Shown here: piece after piece, positions 11,062 through 17,898 of the stretch
How positions within the stretch are numbered: the first letter of the stretch is position 1
Layout of the letters: each line of letters begins with the position of its first letter
DNA from: Planobispora longispora
Lineage (GTDB): Bacteria; Actinomycetota; Actinomycetes; Streptosporangiales; Streptosporangiaceae
Assembly: GCF_016863135.1 (NCBI RefSeq)
Contig: NZ_BOOH01000023.1
Span: 1-64,000, forward strand
Length of the DNA stretch: 64,000 bases
Direction: 5' to 3'
Made by a program: the position numbers and the translations under genes
The notes under the pieces: generated by a model
The model's database searches: none
Told to the model about the DNA's origin: nothing
Seen by the model: only the letters and a program-made list of their open reading frames with translations

Positions 11062-11289
11062 GGTGGCTGTCTGCCCCCTCACGGACGGCCGTCACATCCG
11101 CGGCGCACCCGCGTCCGCCGCCGGGGGCCGGATCCCGCCCGGCCTCGCCGGATCGCCGCGATCGCCGCGTCGCATCCCCGCGCCCGGACTCCCAGGTAAC
11201 ATTTTTGAGCCATGCTCATATTCGCCTTGACCGGCGAGTTGACACGGCAGATCATGAGGCACCCGCTCCTCCGCACGCAGGGGTGTCCC

Positions 11290-12918
11290 ATGGTCAGAAT
11301 CACCAGATCCAAATCCCTCGCAGTCCTGTTATCCCTCATCGGAACCTTGACTCTGGCGGCCACAGCCGCCGTCGCCGCCCCGGCGCCTCCCGAATCGGAG
11401 GTCGGCGCCGTCGGGGAGCCGCCGGGGAGCGCCGCCCCCGTCCGGGGGTTCGTCGACGGGCACTCCCACCTGATGTCGTACGAGGCGTTCGGCGGCATGC
11501 TGCTGTGCGGCAAGCCGTTCGATCCCGACGGCATCGAGCAGGCCCTGGTGGACTGCCCCGACCACTTCCCGAACGGCGAGGCCGCCTGGTTCGAGAACTT
11601 CACCCGGACCGGCTCTCCCACCGGCACCCACGACCCGGTCGGCTGGCCGACCTTCCGCAGCTGGCCCGCCCATGACTCGCTCACCCACCAGCAGGCCTAC
11701 CACCGTTGGGTCGAACGGGCCTGGCGCGGCGGCCTGCGCGTCCTGGTCAACCACCTGGTCGCCAACCGGCAGCTGTGCGCGATCTACCCGCTCAAGCGCA
11801 ACTCGTGCGACGAGATGGCCTCGCTCCGCCTGCAGGCGCAGCGCACCTTCGAACTGCAGGACTTCATCGACGCCCGGTCCGGCGGTCCCGGCCAGGGCTG
11901 GTTCCGCGTCGTCCGCTCCCCCGCCGAGGCGCGGCAGGTGATCGCCGCCGGCAAGCTCGCGGTGGTCCTCGGCGTGGAGACCTCGGAACCGTTCGGCTGC
12001 CGCCAGACGCTGGGCGTCCCACGCTGCACCAGGGCGCAGATCGACCGGGGCCTGGACGAGATGCAGGCGCTCGGCGTGCGCAGCATGTTCGTCTGCCACA
12101 AGTACGACAACGCGCTGTGCGGGGTGCGCTTCGACTCCGGCACCCAGGGCGTCATCGTCAACCTGGGCAACTTCCTGTCCACCGGCAGGTTCTGGACCGC
12201 CCGGACCTGCACCGGGCCCGAGCACGACAACACGATCGAGAAGGCCGGGGCGCTGCCGCCCCCGCTCGACCGGCTGCTCCCCGGCGGCGTCGGCCTGCCG
12301 TTGTACCCCCCCGCCCCGCACTGCAACACCAGGGGGCTGACGAGCCTGGGCGAGCACATGATCAGGGGAATGATGGCACGCGGCATGCTCGTCGAGATCG
12401 ACCACATGAGCGTCAAGGCGGCCGACCGGACCCTCGACCTGCTGGAGGCCGAGGGCTACGCCGGGGTGGTCTCCTCGCACAGCTGGACCGACCCGGGCTA
12501 CCTCCGCCGGATCTACCGGCTCGGCGGCATGGTCACCGCCTACGGCCACCACGCCGAGGAGTTCGCCGCGACCTGGCGCGAGACCCGGCCGCTGCGCGCG
12601 GAGTTCGGGCGTCCGGGGTACGGCTACGGCCTGGACGCCAACGGCCTGGGCACGCTGCCCTCGCCCCGTCCCGGCAACGCGTCCAACCCGGTCACCTACC
12701 CGTTCACCTCCGTCGACGGCGCGGTCACACTGGAGCGGCAGCGCACCGGGGAGCGGGTCTGGGACGTCAACGTCGACGGGGTCGCCCACTACGGCCTGGT
12801 CCCCGACTGGATCGAGGACATGCGGCTGGTCGCGGGGAACGAGCTCGTCCAGGACATGGCCGCCGGAGCCGAGGCGTACCTCCGCACCTGGGAGGCCGCG
12901 GCCTCGCGGGCCCCGTGA
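11290..12918 (+). CDS. Secreted metal-dependent hydrolase, membrane-dipeptidase/amidohydrolase type
   Basis: From the ATG at 11290 the protein is 542 residues long, with a signal peptide at 1-30 (ending AVAA-PAP). Metal ligands of a TIM-barrel amidohydrolase are visible: DGHSHLM after the signal region, EIDHMS in the middle and SSHSWTD later; the EIDHMS/SSHS pair is typical of the membrane dipeptidase (M19) group. Several cysteines (in LLCGKPF, LVDCPDH, RNSCDEM, PFGCRQ, PRCTR, HCNTR) could form disulfides in the exported enzyme. The reaction cannot be fixed from sequence. An earlier in-frame ATG at 11212 would bury the signal peptide, so I prefer 11290. It lies upstream of the threonyl-tRNA synthetase leader. 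Confidence 0.78.
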   Translation: MVRITRSKSLAVLLSLIGTLTLAATAAVAAPAPPESEVGAVGEPPGSAAPVRGFVDGHSHLMSYEAFGGMLLCGKPFDPDGIEQALVDCPDHFPNGEAAWFENFTRTGSPTGTHDPVGWPTFRSWPAHDSLTHQQAYHRWVERAWRGGLRVLVNHLVANRQLCAIYPLKRNSCDEMASLRLQAQRTFELQDFIDARSGGPGQGWFRVVRSPAEARQVIAAGKLAVVLGVETSEPFGCRQTLGVPRCTRAQIDRGLDEMQALGVRSMFVCHKYDNALCGVRFDSGTQGVIVNLGNFLSTGRFWTARTCTGPEHDNTIEKAGALPPPLDRLLPGGVGLPLYPPAPHCNTRGLTSLGEHMIRGMMARGMLVEIDHMSVKAADRTLDLLEAEGYAGVVSSHSWTDPGYLRRIYRLGGMVTAYGHHAEEFAATWRETRPLRAEFGRPGYGYGLDANGLGTLPSPRPGNASNPVTYPFTSVDGAVTLERQRTGERVWDVNVDGVAHYGLVPDWIEDMRLVAGNELVQDMAAGAEAYLRTWEAAASRAP

Positions 12919-13101: not shown

Positions 13102-14388
13102 ATGAACGACCAGCGCTATGACCACCACCCCGACCAGCACCCCGACCACCACCTCGACCGGCGCCACGACCACCGGCGCCTCGGCCGCGAGCTCGACCTG
13201 TTCGACACCGACCCGCTCATCGGCAAGGGCCTGCCGTTCTGGCTGCCGGCGGGCGCCGCCGTACGGCACGCCGTGGAGGCCTACGTGCACCGGGCCGAAC
13301 GCCTGGCCGGATACCGGCACGTCCACTCCCCCATCATGGGCAAACGCGAACTGTACGAGATATCCGGGCACTGGGCTCACTACCGCGAGGACATGTTCCC
13401 GCCCATGATGGTCGGCGGCGAGGAGTTCGTGCTCCGGCCGAGCCTGTGCCCGCACCACGCGCTGGTCTTCCGCTCCCGGCCGCGCAGCCACCGGGACCTG
13501 CCGCTGCGCCTGGCCGAGCTGGGCGGCATGCACCGGGCCGAGCTGTCGGGGGTGCTCGGCGGCCTGTCCCGGGTCCGGGCCATCCAGCTCAACGACGGCC
13601 ACGTGTTCTGCGCCGGGGAGGACGCCGGCCGGGAGGTGGGGGCGGCGCTGGCGATGATCGCCGAGGCCCACCGGGCGCTGGGCGTCACCGCCTCCGGGTA
13701 CCGGCTCTCGCTCCGGGGCGAGGGGGACAAGTACATCGACGACCCGGCCATGTGGCGGCGGGCCGAGGTGATCCTGCGCGAGGCGCTGGAGGAGCGCGGC
13801 CTGCCGTACGAGGAGGCGGCGGGAGAGGGCGCCTTCTACGGGCCGAAGATCGACGTGCAGATCACCGACCCGGCCGGGCGCGAGTCCACCCTCTCGACCG
13901 TGCAGGTCGACCTGTTCCAGCCGGGCCGCTTCGGCCTGGAGTACACCGGCCCGGACCAGCGCATGCGCCGGCCGGTGATGGTGCACCGCAGCGTGGTCGG
14001 GAGCATGGAACGGCTCATGGCCCACCTGGTCGAGCTGTACGGCGGAGCCTTCCCCGCCTGGCTCGCCCCCGTCCAGGTGGTGGCGCTCCCGGTCTCGGCC
14101 GCCGAGCTGCCCGCGGCCGGGGAGTTCGTCCGGGCGTGCGAGGAGGCCGGTCTCCGGGCCGAGCTGTCCGGGCCGCAGGACGGCACCCTCGGGGCCCGGA
14201 TCCGCGAGGGCAGGCTGGTGCCGTACCAGGCGGTGATCGGGGCGCGGGAGGCCGCGGCGGGGCAGGTCTCGCTCCGCCTGCGCGACGGCTCGCGCCGGGA
14301 ACCGCTCCCCGCCGCCGAGGCGGTCGCCCGGTTGTCGGGGGAGGCCGTCCCCTTCCCCGGTGACGGCCTCCCGGACGACGGGCGTTGA
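13102..14388 (+). CDS. Short threonyl-tRNA synthetase lacking TGS and editing domains
   Basis: The 428-residue protein is a class II aminoacyl-tRNA synthetase core of the threonyl type plus the anticodon-binding domain (about 325-405). RRLGRELDLFD marks the start of the core, motif 2 is LAELGGMHRAELSG (138-150), and motif 3 is HRSVVGSMERLM (from His295). The three zinc ligands are kept: Cys116 in RPSLCPHH, His167 in DGHVFC and His295. A full housekeeping ThrRS has about 650 residues with N-terminal TGS and editing domains; here they are replaced by a short tail with seven His in residues 8-24. Such short second copies can act in amino-acid stress, antibiotic resistance or tRNA-dependent biosynthesis. 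The leader peptide and hairpin upstream suggest induction by threonine shortage. GAGGAG precedes the ATG. Confidence 0.88.
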   Translation: MNDQRYDHHPDQHPDHHLDRRHDHRRLGRELDLFDTDPLIGKGLPFWLPAGAAVRHAVEAYVHRAERLAGYRHVHSPIMGKRELYEISGHWAHYREDMFPPMMVGGEEFVLRPSLCPHHALVFRSRPRSHRDLPLRLAELGGMHRAELSGVLGGLSRVRAIQLNDGHVFCAGEDAGREVGAALAMIAEAHRALGVTASGYRLSLRGEGDKYIDDPAMWRRAEVILREALEERGLPYEEAAGEGAFYGPKIDVQITDPAGRESTLSTVQVDLFQPGRFGLEYTGPDQRMRRPVMVHRSVVGSMERLMAHLVELYGGAFPAWLAPVQVVALPVSAAELPAAGEFVRACEEAGLRAELSGPQDGTLGARIREGRLVPYQAVIGAREAAAGQVSLRLRDGSRREPLPAAEAVARLSGEAVPFPGDGLPDDGR

Positions 14389-14398
14389 TAAAGCCGAT

Positions 14399-16231
14399 CT
14401 AAGGGCGTTCCTCCTCTCCCGCGAGGCCCGCCGCGCGCATCGCGGCGTGCAGCGGTTCCAGCAGCGCCGCCGCCTGGTCCTCCCGGGTCACCAGGGCGGG
14501 CATCGGCCCGTACGGCACCGCCACCGGCGCGTAGGTCCCCTGGGGGGCGATCCCGACGGCGACCGCCGCGTCGGGCAGCCCCGCGCCGACCCGCGACGGG
14601 TCGAGCTGCGGCAGCGGCCGGCAGGACGCTCTGATGACCGCGAAGAGCCGGTCGACCCGGATGCTGTCGCGCGCCGCCTGGGAGCGGCCGGGCTCCGGCC
14701 GGAACAGCGGGTGGTGGGCCAGCACCAGGGCCGCGACCGCGGCCACGTGCGCCGCCGCGGTTCCCGTGCCGCCGCGGGGCCCGTAGCTGGTGGGCGGCAG
14801 CCCGGAGACGATCGCCAGACCGGGGGCGCAGCAGTCCAGCCCGGGGCCCCCGGCGCTGAAGCGCGGCACGAAGACGCCCTCGGGCGTGGGCCGGCCGTCC
14901 AGGTGGACCAGGTCGGCGCCGTCCGGCGGGAACGTGCCCAGCTGCCCGATCGCGCCCACCGCCAGCACCCCGGGCAGGGCGGCCGGATACGACAGCGCCC
15001 CGCCGGAGTCTCCGGCGGCGGCCACGCACGCCACCCCGTTGCGGCGCGCCTCTTCGATCTTGGCGGCGACCAGGGGGGAGTGCTCGGGGAAGCCGTAGGC
15101 GATCAGCGCGACGTCGATCCGCTGCTCGATGCAGTAGTCGAGGGCCTCCACGAGGTCCAGGGTCCAGCCCTCCGGAGCGATCCGGCACGCGTACACCTCC
15201 GCCTCGGGCGTCAGACCCACCACGCCCGAGCCGTCGTCCCGCCCGGCCAGCAGCACCGCGTTGTGCGTGCCGCCGCCGATCAGGTCCTCCTCCCAGCTCT
15301 TGTCGTCCTGGCCGATCACGTCGCGCCCGGCGGGGATGCGATCGGACAGGTCCGGGTGCCCGGCCGCCACGCCCGAGTCGATCACCGCGATCCGCACGCC
15401 GTGCCCGCGGTGGGTCGGCGGCAGCCGGTCGAATCCCATCGCCCGCGTTCCCCAGGAGTCGAGCTGCCGGTCGGGGAAGTCCGGGTGGGTCTCCGTGATC
15501 CGCAGGCAGGTCACCCGGTTGGGCGCGTCCACGCTCAGCAGCGGCCGGTTGACCACGACCGGCCAGCAGGCCCGGGGCGGGTGCACCACCAGCGCCCTGA
15601 CCGAGGCCAGGACGTCGGGGGGCACGGTCAGCTCCGCCCGGCCCTCCGCTCCGGTGTAGGCGGTGAACGCGGTGCCGTACAGGCTCACCTCCGCTCCCTC
15701 GATCGGCCTGCCGGCGTCGTCGCCGACCTCGACGGCGGCCGTGCGCAGCGTCCCCGCGGGGGCGTCCAGCTCGTGGGCGTCCGGGGCGCCGAGCCCGTGG
15801 AACGCCGCGTGCCCGGCCCGGCCGTCGTACCGGACCGCCGCGCGGCCGAGCGGCTGGTCGGGCTCGATGTGCAGGCCGGGCACCCGGGCCAGGGCGGCGG
15901 CGCGGTCGGCAGGCATCTCGACGGCCGCCAGGCGCGGGAAGGCGCCCGCGGGGTGGACCGTGCCGACGGTCCGCACCACCGTGCACGCCGGGTCCTCTTC
16001 CAGTTGCGCGAGGACCGCCCGCACGTCGGTCGGCGGCATGACGGCGACCAGGTATCTGTCGCGGCGCGTGCGGATGCCCGTCCGGGCGGCGGAACGCCGG
16101 GAGGCCTGACCCGGCTTCGCCTCGCCGGTCCTGCTCTCAGCGGTTCTGGCCCCGCCCGCCTCGCCCTGGGCGCCGGAAGCTTGACGGCCCCTGCCCGCGG
16201 CAGGCTTCGGTTCTCGTGATCCGTTGGCCAT
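14399..16231 (-). CDS. Catalytically dead subtilisin-like (S8) protein
   Basis: The 610-residue protein has a basic, disordered N-terminus (1-57), an I9-like prodomain fold (about 58-128), a carboxypeptidase-regulatory-like beta domain (about 163-245, GRPIEGAEVSLYG) and an S8 domain (about 275-510). Only the catalytic Asp survives (Asp285 in VIDSG). The HGTH box reads GGTH (Gly320 in place of the catalytic His), the oxyanion Asn in AAGNSG is Asp408, and GTSMAxPH reads GTGTAAAH with Gly490 in place of the nucleophile Ser. There is no signal peptide, so it is probably cytoplasmic. The start at 16231 is chosen because the longer frame runs through a 20-bp tandem repeat. It is the last of three minus-strand genes, after the 94-residue and glutamine-rich proteins. 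A binding or scaffold role is inference. Confidence 0.85.
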   Translation of the reverse strand: MANGSREPKPAAGRGRQASGAQGEAGGARTAESRTGEAKPGQASRRSAARTGIRTRRDRYLVAVMPPTDVRAVLAQLEEDPACTVVRTVGTVHPAGAFPRLAAVEMPADRAAALARVPGLHIEPDQPLGRAAVRYDGRAGHAAFHGLGAPDAHELDAPAGTLRTAAVEVGDDAGRPIEGAEVSLYGTAFTAYTGAEGRAELTVPPDVLASVRALVVHPPRACWPVVVNRPLLSVDAPNRVTCLRITETHPDFPDRQLDSWGTRAMGFDRLPPTHRGHGVRIAVIDSGVAAGHPDLSDRIPAGRDVIGQDDKSWEEDLIGGGTHNAVLLAGRDDGSGVVGLTPEAEVYACRIAPEGWTLDLVEALDYCIEQRIDVALIAYGFPEHSPLVAAKIEEARRNGVACVAAAGDSGGALSYPAALPGVLAVGAIGQLGTFPPDGADLVHLDGRPTPEGVFVPRFSAGGPGLDCCAPGLAIVSGLPPTSYGPRGGTGTAAAHVAAVAALVLAHHPLFRPEPGRSQAARDSIRVDRLFAVIRASCRPLPQLDPSRVGAGLPDAAVAVGIAPQGTYAPVAVPYGPMPALVTREDQAAALLEPLHAAMRAAGLAGEEERP

Positions 16232-16246
16232 CTTCTCGACTCTTTC

Positions 16247-16286
16247 GTCTCGTGTCTCGCCGGAGAGTCTCGTGTCTCGCCGGAGA
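16247..16286. repeat. Perfect 20-bp tandem duplication upstream of the pseudo-subtilase gene
   Basis: The unit GTCTCGTGTCTCGCCGGAGA occurs twice without a mismatch (16247-16266 and 16267-16286), starting 16 bases upstream of the pseudo-subtilase start codon at 16231. It may be a recent slippage duplication or a tandem binding site. Confidence 0.85.
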
Positions 16287-16314
16287 CGGGTGCGGCGCGC
16301 AGGCACCGCACCCG
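16287..16314 (-). terminator. Intercistronic hairpin between the 94-residue gene and the pseudo-subtilase gene
   Basis: Nine-base arms CGGGTGCGG (16287-16295) and CCGCACCCG (16306-16314) with a 10-base loop. Since it lies inside the three-gene block it could lower expression of the last gene or protect the upstream mRNA. Confidence 0.5.
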
Positions 16315-16336
16315 CCGCCTCACGACGGAGGCCGCC

Positions 16337-16621
16337 TCACAGCGGAGGCAGTGCCGGGTACGCCTGCCGGGCCTGGTGCACCATGGCGATGACGCCGGAC
16401 AGCTGCCGCCGGGCGGCCGGATACTGCCCCGCCGCGTAGAGCTGCGCCGCCACGGTCAGCGCGGGCGCCGTCTGGGCGACCGCGGGAACCACCGCGCTCG
16501 CCGCGCGCAACCAGCGGTAGGTGTGTTCCAGGAGCCCCGCGACCTCCTGCCGCGAGACCGTGTCCGCGGGGTTCCGCGGCGCGGTGGCGGCGAGCAGGAC
16601 CGGGTTCGTGGTCGGGTGCAT
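16337..16621 (-). CDS. 94-residue alpha-helical protein of the pseudo-subtilase cluster
   Basis: I do not recognise this protein. After a short tail (MHPTTNPVLLAATAPRNPADT) it is predicted all-helical: HTYRWLRAASAVVPAVAQTAPALTV-like helices rich in Ala, then YPAARRQLSGVIAMVHQARQAY. There is no signal peptide or long membrane helix. It starts 9 bases after the stop of the glutamine-rich gene, with AGAGG about ten bases before its ATG, so the two are surely co-transcribed. The pseudo-subtilase gene follows after 105 bases that hold a hairpin and a tandem repeat. The context suggests a small partner in one assembly; that is inference. Confidence 0.75.
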   Translation of the reverse strand: MHPTTNPVLLAATAPRNPADTVSRQEVAGLLEHTYRWLRAASAVVPAVAQTAPALTVAAQLYAAGQYPAARRQLSGVIAMVHQARQAYPALPPL

Positions 16622-16630
16622 GACCGGCCT

Positions 16631-17014
16631 CTAGAAGCCGCGGAGTTGGCCCGGCACCTGCTGGAAGGGCTGCTGCCAGAGCTGGCCGTACTGCTGCGGG
16701 CTGTACTGCTGGGGGCCGTACTGCTGCTGGAAGGGCTGCTGCCAGAGCTGGCTCTGCTGCCCCTGCTGCTGGGAGATCTGCTGGGCGACGAGCTGGTGGA
16801 GCTGCTGGTGGATCTGCTGCGCGGCGATGCTGACGACCTGCGGCAGGATGTACTGCTGCGCGATCGGCAGGATCTGGCTCACGAGCTGCTGGACGACCTG
16901 CTGCACCTGGTACGGCCCCTGCATGCCGAGCTGCTGCTCCAGCCCCATGGAGGCGGGGAAGCCCGGGGTGTAGCCCTGCTGCTGAAGGGCGGGAACCTGG
17001 GTGGTCGTGGTCAT
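16631..17014 (-). CDS. Glutamine-rich low-complexity protein
   Basis: The 127-residue product contains 44 Gln (35 percent) and no Lys. An N-terminal part (1-28) is followed by an amphipathic Gln/Val/Leu/Ile region (about 33-80, repeated QQVVQQLVSQILPIAQQ-like heptads), then a Gln/Tyr/Pro tail in which LWQQPFQQ occurs twice around YGPQQYSPQQYGQ. Gln/Tyr-rich tails like this are prone to self-association, so a fibre, coat or condensate-forming protein is possible; that is inference. GGGAGGA precedes the ATG at 17014, which is the first gene of the three-gene block. It diverges from the XRE regulator across a 163-base promoter region. No homologue is recognised. Confidence 0.8.
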   Translation of the reverse strand: MTTTTQVPALQQQGYTPGFPASMGLEQQLGMQGPYQVQQVVQQLVSQILPIAQQYILPQVVSIAAQQIHQQLHQLVAQQISQQQGQQSQLWQQPFQQQYGPQQYSPQQYGQLWQQPFQQVPGQLRGF

Positions 17015-17070: not shown

Positions 17071-17087
17071 GTCCAACCACATTGGAC
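17071..17087. promoter_or_regulatory. Inverted repeat in the divergent promoter of the glutamine-rich and XRE genes
   Basis: GTCCAA (17071-17076) and TTGGAC (17082-17087) are perfect inverted half-sites separated by CCACA. It is 57 bases upstream of the glutamine-rich gene and 91 bases upstream of the regulator, a reasonable place for an operator of the adjacent HTH protein. Confidence 0.5.
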
Positions 17088-17177: not shown

Positions 17178-17615
17178 ATGAACGCGCTACAACGGCTCAT
17201 CCACACCCGAATGGCCGAGCTCAACCGCTCATACGGCGAGGTGGCCCGTCAGGGCGGACTGCCCCGCTCGACCGTGCACCATCTCGCCTCCAACTCCCGC
17301 CTCAGCCGGCTGCCCAACCCCGTCACCCTCGAACGCCTCGCCCGCGGGCTCGACGTCCCCCTCGACGTCGTCCGCTCCGCGGCCGCCGCCGTGGCGGGCT
17401 TCAGCCTCAGCAACGGCCCCGCCGACGACCCGGAGATCGAGGTCCTGATCGCCTCGCTGGCCAAGCTCAGCCCCCAGGACCGCAGGCACGTGGCCGCGCT
17501 CGTGCGCTCCCTGCTCACCGCGGACGGCGCCGGCGACTCCGACGGCTCGGGCGGCTCGAATAGCTCCGGCGACGCCGCCGATGTCCCTCAGAAATCGGAC
17601 AGAAAAGACGGATGA
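17178..17615 (+). CDS. XRE-family helix-turn-helix regulator
   Basis: The 145-residue protein has an HTH_3-type DNA-binding domain at about 1-70: IHTRMAELNRSYGEVARQGGLPRSTVHHLAS contains the helix-turn-helix, and LERLARGLDVPLDVV completes the domain. A helical segment (about 85-115) follows, then a disordered Gly/Ser/Asp tail. It is divergent from the glutamine-rich/pseudo-subtilase block and upstream of a small protein gene, so it may regulate either. GGAGAGG precedes the ATG. Two dyads upstream are candidate operators. The fold is sure; the target is inference. Confidence 0.85.
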   Translation: MNALQRLIHTRMAELNRSYGEVARQGGLPRSTVHHLASNSRLSRLPNPVTLERLARGLDVPLDVVRSAAAAVAGFSLSNGPADDPEIEVLIASLAKLSPQDRRHVAALVRSLLTADGAGDSDGSGGSNSSGDAADVPQKSDRKDG

Positions 17616-17703: not shown

Positions 17704-17898
17704 ATGCGCGTTGTGCGATGGCCCGGCCCACCGGCGGTTGTCAAGGTCAAAACTCGGGGCGTCCTCACGGTGGCCGTGTCCCCGGCCCTGACGCACCGGG
17801 AGGTCCTCGAACTGGCCAGCCTTGTCCTGTCCGGCAGTGAATATCAGGAATTCCGCAGAGAGATCGACCCCGCCCCGCCCGCTTCCGGGGCCACCTGA
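17704..17898 (+). CDS. Small protein downstream of the XRE regulator
   Basis: The 64-residue frame starts at the ATG behind GGGAAG; an in-frame GTG at 17686 is an alternative. The translation (VKVKTRGVLTVAVSPALTHREVLELASLVLSGSEYQEFRREI) alternates a beta-like and a helical part and looks like real coding sequence. I do not recognise it. The gap to the XRE gene (88 bases) contains an ACCTAG...CTAGGT dyad (17617-17622 and 17642-17647). XRE regulators are often paired with small partner proteins, but nothing here proves interaction. Confidence 0.55.
   Translation: MRVVRWPGPPAVVKVKTRGVLTVAVSPALTHREVLELASLVLSGSEYQEFRREIDPAPPASGAT

Follow-up and report, generated by a model that had tools for sequence, protein, structure and literature searches.

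The stretch of DNA analysed here, 64,000 nucleotides from Planobispora longispora (contig NZ_BOOH01000023.1, positions 1 to 64,000; hereafter the window), carries an operon for a subtilase-like protein of peptidase family S8 that has lost most of its catalytic residues, encoded together with a small helical protein and a glutamine-rich (Gln-rich) protein. We found that the S8 gene is not simply decaying and has been retained without catalysis, and its relatives suggest that the dead S8 proteins are kept for a non-cutting job. The locus comprises the following features:

14399..16231, minus strand: pseudo-subtilase coding sequence, 610 residues from the ATG at 16231
14423..14461, minus strand: C-terminal motif LEPLHAAMRAAGL (residues 591-603), an instance of the family motif LxxLxxxMxxAGL
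14693..15406, minus strand: S8 domain (residues 276-513)
14762-14764, minus strand: G490, in place of the nucleophile Ser
15008-15010, minus strand: D408, in place of the oxyanion Asn
15272-15274, minus strand: G320, in place of the catalytic His
15377-15379, minus strand: D285, the catalytic Asp, kept
15497..15754, minus strand: beta-sandwich-like domain (residues 160-245), matching CarboxypepD_reg and Big_1 below curated cut-offs
15842..16066, minus strand: N-terminal domain (residues 56-130), seen by alignment
16337..16621, minus strand: small helical protein, 94 residues, with a weak TPR-like resemblance
16631..17014, minus strand: Gln-rich protein, 127 residues, 44 of them Gln (34.6 percent) and none Lys
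17071..17087: putative operator, the palindrome GTCCAA-N5-TTGGAC, lying between the genes for the regulator and the Gln-rich protein
17178..17615, plus strand: divergent XRE-type helix-turn-helix (HTH) regulator, 145 residues

The pseudo-subtilase and its operon

Judged from its sequence, the 610-residue protein can be firmly assigned to family S8: it matches PF00082 with 99.8 bits (cut-off 21.8; E 2.2e-28), and subtilisin BPN' aligns with it across the catalytic domain. An alternative in-frame GTG at 16306 would give a protein of 635 residues; the ATG is preferred because the relative from Nonomuraea basaltis (locus L094) shares the opening residues MANG[SA]REPKPAA. A preliminary description of the locus had reported the three genes, the kept D285, the Gly, Asp and Gly replacements, and a Gln-rich protein without Lys. 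Translation, the PF00082 match, and a seven-row alignment bear out all of this, and the three genes indeed share the minus strand, with both small genes upstream of the S8 gene and gaps of 9 bp and 105 bp between the coding sequences. With D285 alone kept among the four residues, we rejected the possibility that the protein is an active subtilase.

The N-terminal domain may resemble an I9-type subtilisin prodomain; the region has no I9 match among the Pfam matches at E up to 1 or in a PDB profile search. No signal peptide is apparent by eye (no predictor was run), and the protein would be cytoplasmic. The same genome (G000) holds four further weak S8 matches, which are other S8 genes. For the small and Gln-rich proteins, Pfam gave no family at E up to 1, while in the PDB profile search the small protein had nothing beyond weak matches of TPR type (SRP72, E 0.012).

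The palindrome also occurs at the equivalent place in L094. When five genomes were searched, it was found once in the genome of the window and once in G208, the genome to which L094 presumably belongs, and not in G001, G002, or G003. Likewise, the HTH gene lies near only two of the 47 family loci, the window and L094. The palindrome is a probable operator in our judgement, and the natural reading of the sequence would be a dedicated repressor-operator pair. A 64-residue open frame follows the HTH gene (17704-17898, plus strand); a similar frame is seen by eye in L094 (392-604), and the frame is intact in G002, after the deletion described below.

Two further genes lie on the plus strand beyond the operon. 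One, at 13102-14388 and convergent with the S8 gene, encodes a threonyl-tRNA synthetase of a second type (428 residues), also present in G002; it covers only positions 170-562 of TIGR00418 and thus lacks the N-terminal TGS and editing parts. The other, at 11212-12918, encodes a 568-residue protein of peptidase family M19 (membrane dipeptidase) with a secretion-like start.

Intact and dead members of the operon family

A first search of 100 relatives matched the S8 N-terminal region in nine and the small protein in five. With a profile built from seven small-protein sequences, matches were found in 42 of the 341 genomes of the window's taxonomic family, and at all 42 loci (the window included) an S8 gene of the operon family lies downstream on the same strand. 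The gap between the two genes ranges from -72 to 365 bp, and some loci have a further small gene in between. When the profile was built from the S8 N-terminal region instead, 47 of the 341 genomes matched, 43 of them strongly; these are the same 42 plus G002, which belongs to the window's genus. Outside the taxonomic family, a class-wide sample of 394 genomes gave strong matches in four (G448, G467, G637, and G512). The small gene is present in the first three, while G512 has none anywhere in its genome at E 0.1.

The fourth small gene found between the small and S8 genes (L022 8506-8787, L020 9736-10017, and others) resembles the S8 N-terminal domain and is perhaps an inhibitor acting in trans. 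By tblastn, stand-alone genes like this domain were counted at 16 of 47 loci, although such matches may lie inside the S8 gene; a distinct second match is evident in six genomes of the family and in G448.

Most members of the family appear to be equipped for catalysis. In the seven-row alignment all six relatives carry D, H, and S at the catalytic columns, with N (four) or S (two) at the oxyanion column, and in a 42-row alignment the triad is intact in 39, the exceptions being the window, L094, and L091. We then tabulated 58 S8 genes, leaving out L021 (the remnant in G002) and L174 (a partial match in G831); the Gln-rich gene of L020 is cut by a contig end and was not judged, and the S8 genes of L074 and L095 are truncated at the 3' end. 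Written in the order Asp, His, oxyanion, and Ser column, 44 genes keep Asp-His-Ser (DHNS 38, DHSS 5, and DHDS 1) and 14 do not (GSDG 5, GTDG 3, DHDA 2, DRDS 1, DHDT 1, DGDG 1, the window, and DTDG 1, L094). The oxyanion Asp is found in all 14 of the latter and in one intact gene. The preliminary description had held that homologues with intact His and Ser would speak against it, and these turned out to be the majority. Because the wider family as a rule retains His and Ser, the substitutions in the window mark a subclade. Nor is the Gly/Asp/Gly set itself conserved: dead members have G, T, S, or H at the His column and G, A, or T at the Ser column.

Intact relatives such as L023, L025, and L065 share with the window the gene order, the strand, the S8 N-terminal domains, the C-terminal motif, a Gln-rich or Gln-containing repeat protein, and a small LYR-type helical protein. 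They differ in keeping the triad and in having mostly longer Gln-rich proteins with other helical repeats, and neither an XRE regulator nor the palindrome was found at these loci. Some Gln-containing proteins (L026 6343-7092 and L092 4614-5531) carry up to five near-identical amphipathic repeats, which differ by lineage.

At the C-terminus of the S8 proteins of the family, LxxLxxxMxxAGL occurs once or twice. The motif was observed in 44 of 46 S8 tails as compared to 0.31 expected by shuffling, an expectation that serves only as a guide since the sequences are related. All 44 Asp-His-Ser genes have both the small gene and the motif, as do three of the 14 others, including the window, while the remaining 11 have neither; the two features therefore agree in all 58 genes (both in 47). 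Absence of the small gene was established genome-wide for G512 and within the fetched stretch for the other ten. Because motif and small gene go together, LxxLxxxMxxAGL may be the docking site of the small protein.

Thirteen S8 genes were counted as dead (the window, L094, L143, L151, L152, and L165-L172; L091 was not counted). The preliminary description had asked whether the three genes co-occur. They do, in that the Gln-rich gene lies directly upstream of all 13 and the small gene is accompanied by the S8 gene (42 of 42); next to 11 of the 13 dead S8 genes, however, the small gene is missing.

One dead relative, L094 (NZ_VCJS01000437.1), was the one hit of a contig search with a two-row alignment, whereas the single window protein found no relative. 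Conservation between L094 and the window is 78 percent (HTH), 63 percent (Gln-rich), 70 percent (small), and 63 to 66 percent (S8). In Streptomyces, the two linear plasmids NZ_CP020041.1 and NZ_CP108854.1 each have a Gln-rich gene and, after it, an S8 gene, the residues being D/H/D/T and D/H/D/A. Genus g77, to judge by these plasmid relatives, presumably corresponds to Streptomyces, and nine of its 150 genomes match. In eight of these the S8 genes are dead and always preceded by a Gln-rich gene. G512 has D/H/D/A; the other seven genomes hold eight full genes between them, in which the Asp is also lost (GSDG or GTDG). The ninth, G741, has intact triads and the small gene; its locus (L173, 3911-12619) holds two tandem operon copies, each with a small and an S8 gene.

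In a tree, the 13 dead S8 genes fall on one side of a branch and 21 others on the other, with support of 99/96, and their sequences thus point to a likely single origin. A descent of the window and L094 genes from the L084/L091 type, with which they have the oxyanion Asp in common (L091 has Arg for His), was rejected: approximately unbiased (AU) tests gave p values of 0.058, 0.205, and then 0.014 against it, and the Gln-rich proteins lent it no support, the best shuffled z score after L094 belonging to neither L084 nor L091. We also rejected the idea that the dead S8 protein acts as a regulator of an active copy encoded in its own genome. The family-profile search found a single member each in G000 and G208, and thus the dead protein does not serve an active copy of its own family there.

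The ratio of nonsynonymous to synonymous substitution rates (dN/dS, omega), estimated by the Nei-Gojobori method and therefore rough at this G+C content, was 0.33 for S8 (dS about 0.76), 0.17 for the small gene, 0.46 for the Gln-rich gene, and 0.18 for the HTH gene between the window and L094. Purifying selection is also seen in genus g77, where 15 pairs among six dead genes gave 0.24-0.40 as compared to 0.26-0.32 for three intact pairs. Moreover, the window and L094 both depart at 26 positions from a residue that at least 95 percent of the 42 other rows share, and at 18 of these the two carry the same new residue; the His column, G in the window and T in L094, is not among these shared changes. 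The 13 genes on one branch, the omega values like those of intact genes, and the shared new residues together support the earlier expectation that the substitutions are not unique to one decaying gene.

A proposed binding role and its alternatives

We assign a probability of about 0.5 to the reading that the window operon represents a catalytically dead branch of a Gln-rich, small adaptor, and subtilase operon family, in which the dead S8 protein is a scaffold or binding subunit. In intact members, S8 would probably be an intracellular protease with its own N-terminal inhibitor-like domain, and the small TPR-like protein would likely dock on the C-terminal LxxLxxxMxxAGL helix. The window lineage has lost proteolysis and retained the S8 protein, the adaptor, and the Gln-rich partner. 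Most likely, the dead S8 domain would still be folded and bind the Gln-rich protein encoded beside it. The helical Gln-rich segment of this partner probably mediates its self-association, and S8 may then be the scaffold, cap, or chaperone subunit of a Gln-rich assembly. The divergent XRE regulator would switch the operon at the palindromic site. A role in binding the Gln-rich protein gives the best fit, because the S8 fold, the N-terminal domains, and the Gln-rich partner are kept while catalysis is gone.

A more specific version, which we regard as tentative and well short of an even chance, is that of a conserved module, borne in part on plasmids, whose subtilase turned once into a non-catalytic assembly factor for the self-assembling Gln-rich protein. 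The dead subtilase would bind the Gln-rich chain in its former substrate groove and build or cap a cytoplasmic polymer, and the window lineage would have retained the adaptor and docking helix, both of which would have disappeared jointly in the Streptomyces type.

Several observations weigh against the scaffold reading. The assembly of L094 is listed with 9 percent contamination, and the locus sits on a contig of only 4650 bases. When the blocks around the catalytic residues are removed, support for the dead branch drops to 87/86, which is not full support, and long-branch warnings accompanied the earlier trees, which had fewer dead rows. Two features widespread among the small proteins, the PQxPQ loop and the Arg of LYR, have been lost from that of the window; this could reflect loss of the old function, and the protein has probably changed its role too. 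That the Gln-rich protein self-associates is proposed from its composition. Finally, G002 holds only a broken S8 remnant, with an internal deletion across the Asp and His region and a frame shift. Its small, Gln-rich, and HTH genes are all gone from the locus, and no small gene is found elsewhere in the genome; thus, the module is dispensable in the genus. Omega of the remnant against the window is 0.45, as compared to 0.24-0.30 for three neighbouring genes. The remnant has Ala at the Ser column and Asp at the oxyanion position, and catalysis was therefore lost before or soon after the species split. The module is present in intact form, with other neighbours, in G001 and G003.

The first alternative is a conflict or immunity module of the abortive type, in which the Gln-rich amphipathic-helix protein would be the effector and S8 would sense or restrain it. 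The patchy presence of the module (42 of 341 family genomes and 9 of 150 in g77), its carriage on the two linear plasmids, and the XRE-type control in the window lineage fit this view, as does the finding that among twelve Streptomyces-type loci no gene besides the Gln-rich and S8 pair is common to three or more. However, PADLOC gave only a generic subtilase model (6.1e-20), its other matches being very weak, and no defence-island neighbours were noticed, although no systematic search for them was made. Stress genes, on the other hand, neighbour many intact loci, and we consider an immunity role unlikely.

These same neighbours could indicate protein handling in stress or dormancy, where the intact operon would trim or clear an aggregation-prone Gln-rich protein that the dead form only holds. 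Among 47 loci, genes for Rv2632c-like proteins (PF08962) were found near 21, Usp near 22, Hsp20 near 16, and CBS-BON near five (one of them at L143, in another family), counts that are not independent because the loci come mostly from related species. None of the four is near the window or L094. We consider this explanation slightly less likely still. With intact loci near stress genes and Streptomyces-type loci sharing no neighbour, stress linkage and mobility point in different directions.

Decay of a protease gene, with the operon no longer needed and the window copy on its way out, would account for the remnant in G002 and for its dN/dS above that of its neighbours. We regard it as improbable, since the open frames are full-length in both the window and L094, the S8 omega is low at substantial dS, most of the altered positions carry identical new residues, and dead g77 genes evolve like intact ones.

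Comparison with known subtilases

To our knowledge, few pseudoproteases in bacteria are kept by selection. The best known dead subtilases are CspC and CspA, which act in one spore-germination pathway. Since intact and dead versions of the operon occur in related genomes, the path from enzyme to binding protein can be traced and tested, and the Gln-rich pairing offers a direct bacterial test of whether low-complexity proteins can be managed by a dead protease. Should the scaffold reading fail, an uncharacterised but conserved module of actinomycetes would still call for explanation. Literature searches found no paper on the operon family or on a pairing of a subtilase with a Gln-rich protein, which is weak evidence of novelty since subscription papers were mostly outside their coverage.

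By sequence, the window protein shares the S8 fold with subtilisin BPN' and other secreted subtilisins; unlike these, it is without His and Ser, has no signal peptide apparent by eye, and adds two N-terminal domains and the C-terminal motif. Its best NCBIfam match is to the mycosin of type VII secretion systems (TIGR03921). Membership was rejected, as the match reaches 101.8 bits against a cut-off of 278.75 and the window protein has the additional N-terminal domains; no type VII secretion genes were noticed in the parts read.

The germination pseudoproteases of Clostridioides difficile were rejected as a family on similar grounds. The NCBIfam CspC and CspBA models score 11.3 of 675 and 11.9 of 1250 bits. 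In addition, Csp proteins are described as having a jelly-roll insertion of about 130 residues in the S8 domain (PMC6636752), whereas the Pfam S8 match of the window spans 238 residues without an insert; against BPN', a single stretch, some 20 residues long, aligns with many gaps. We regard a complex for germination or spore loading, working like CspC/CspA with GerG, as very improbable: the CspC pseudotriad D105/T170/G485 has the D/T/G letters of L094 (PMC6636752), and the Asn-rich, gel-forming GerG is required to load Csp proteins into spores (PMC5241399), but homology does not extend beyond S8 (NF040808, 11.3 bits against 675), the GerG repeats are dispensable for this role (PMC5241399), and the window locus bears no evidence of sporulation. 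As to how the proteins may work, CspC/CspA with GerG is nevertheless the nearest parallel. As far as PMC6636752 and PMC5241399 describe them, CspC and CspA differ from the window protein in not being encoded in an operon with a GerG-like gene, and they resemble it in being dead subtilases with a pseudotriad of the D/T/G or D/G/G type and a functional link to an amide-rich low-complexity protein.

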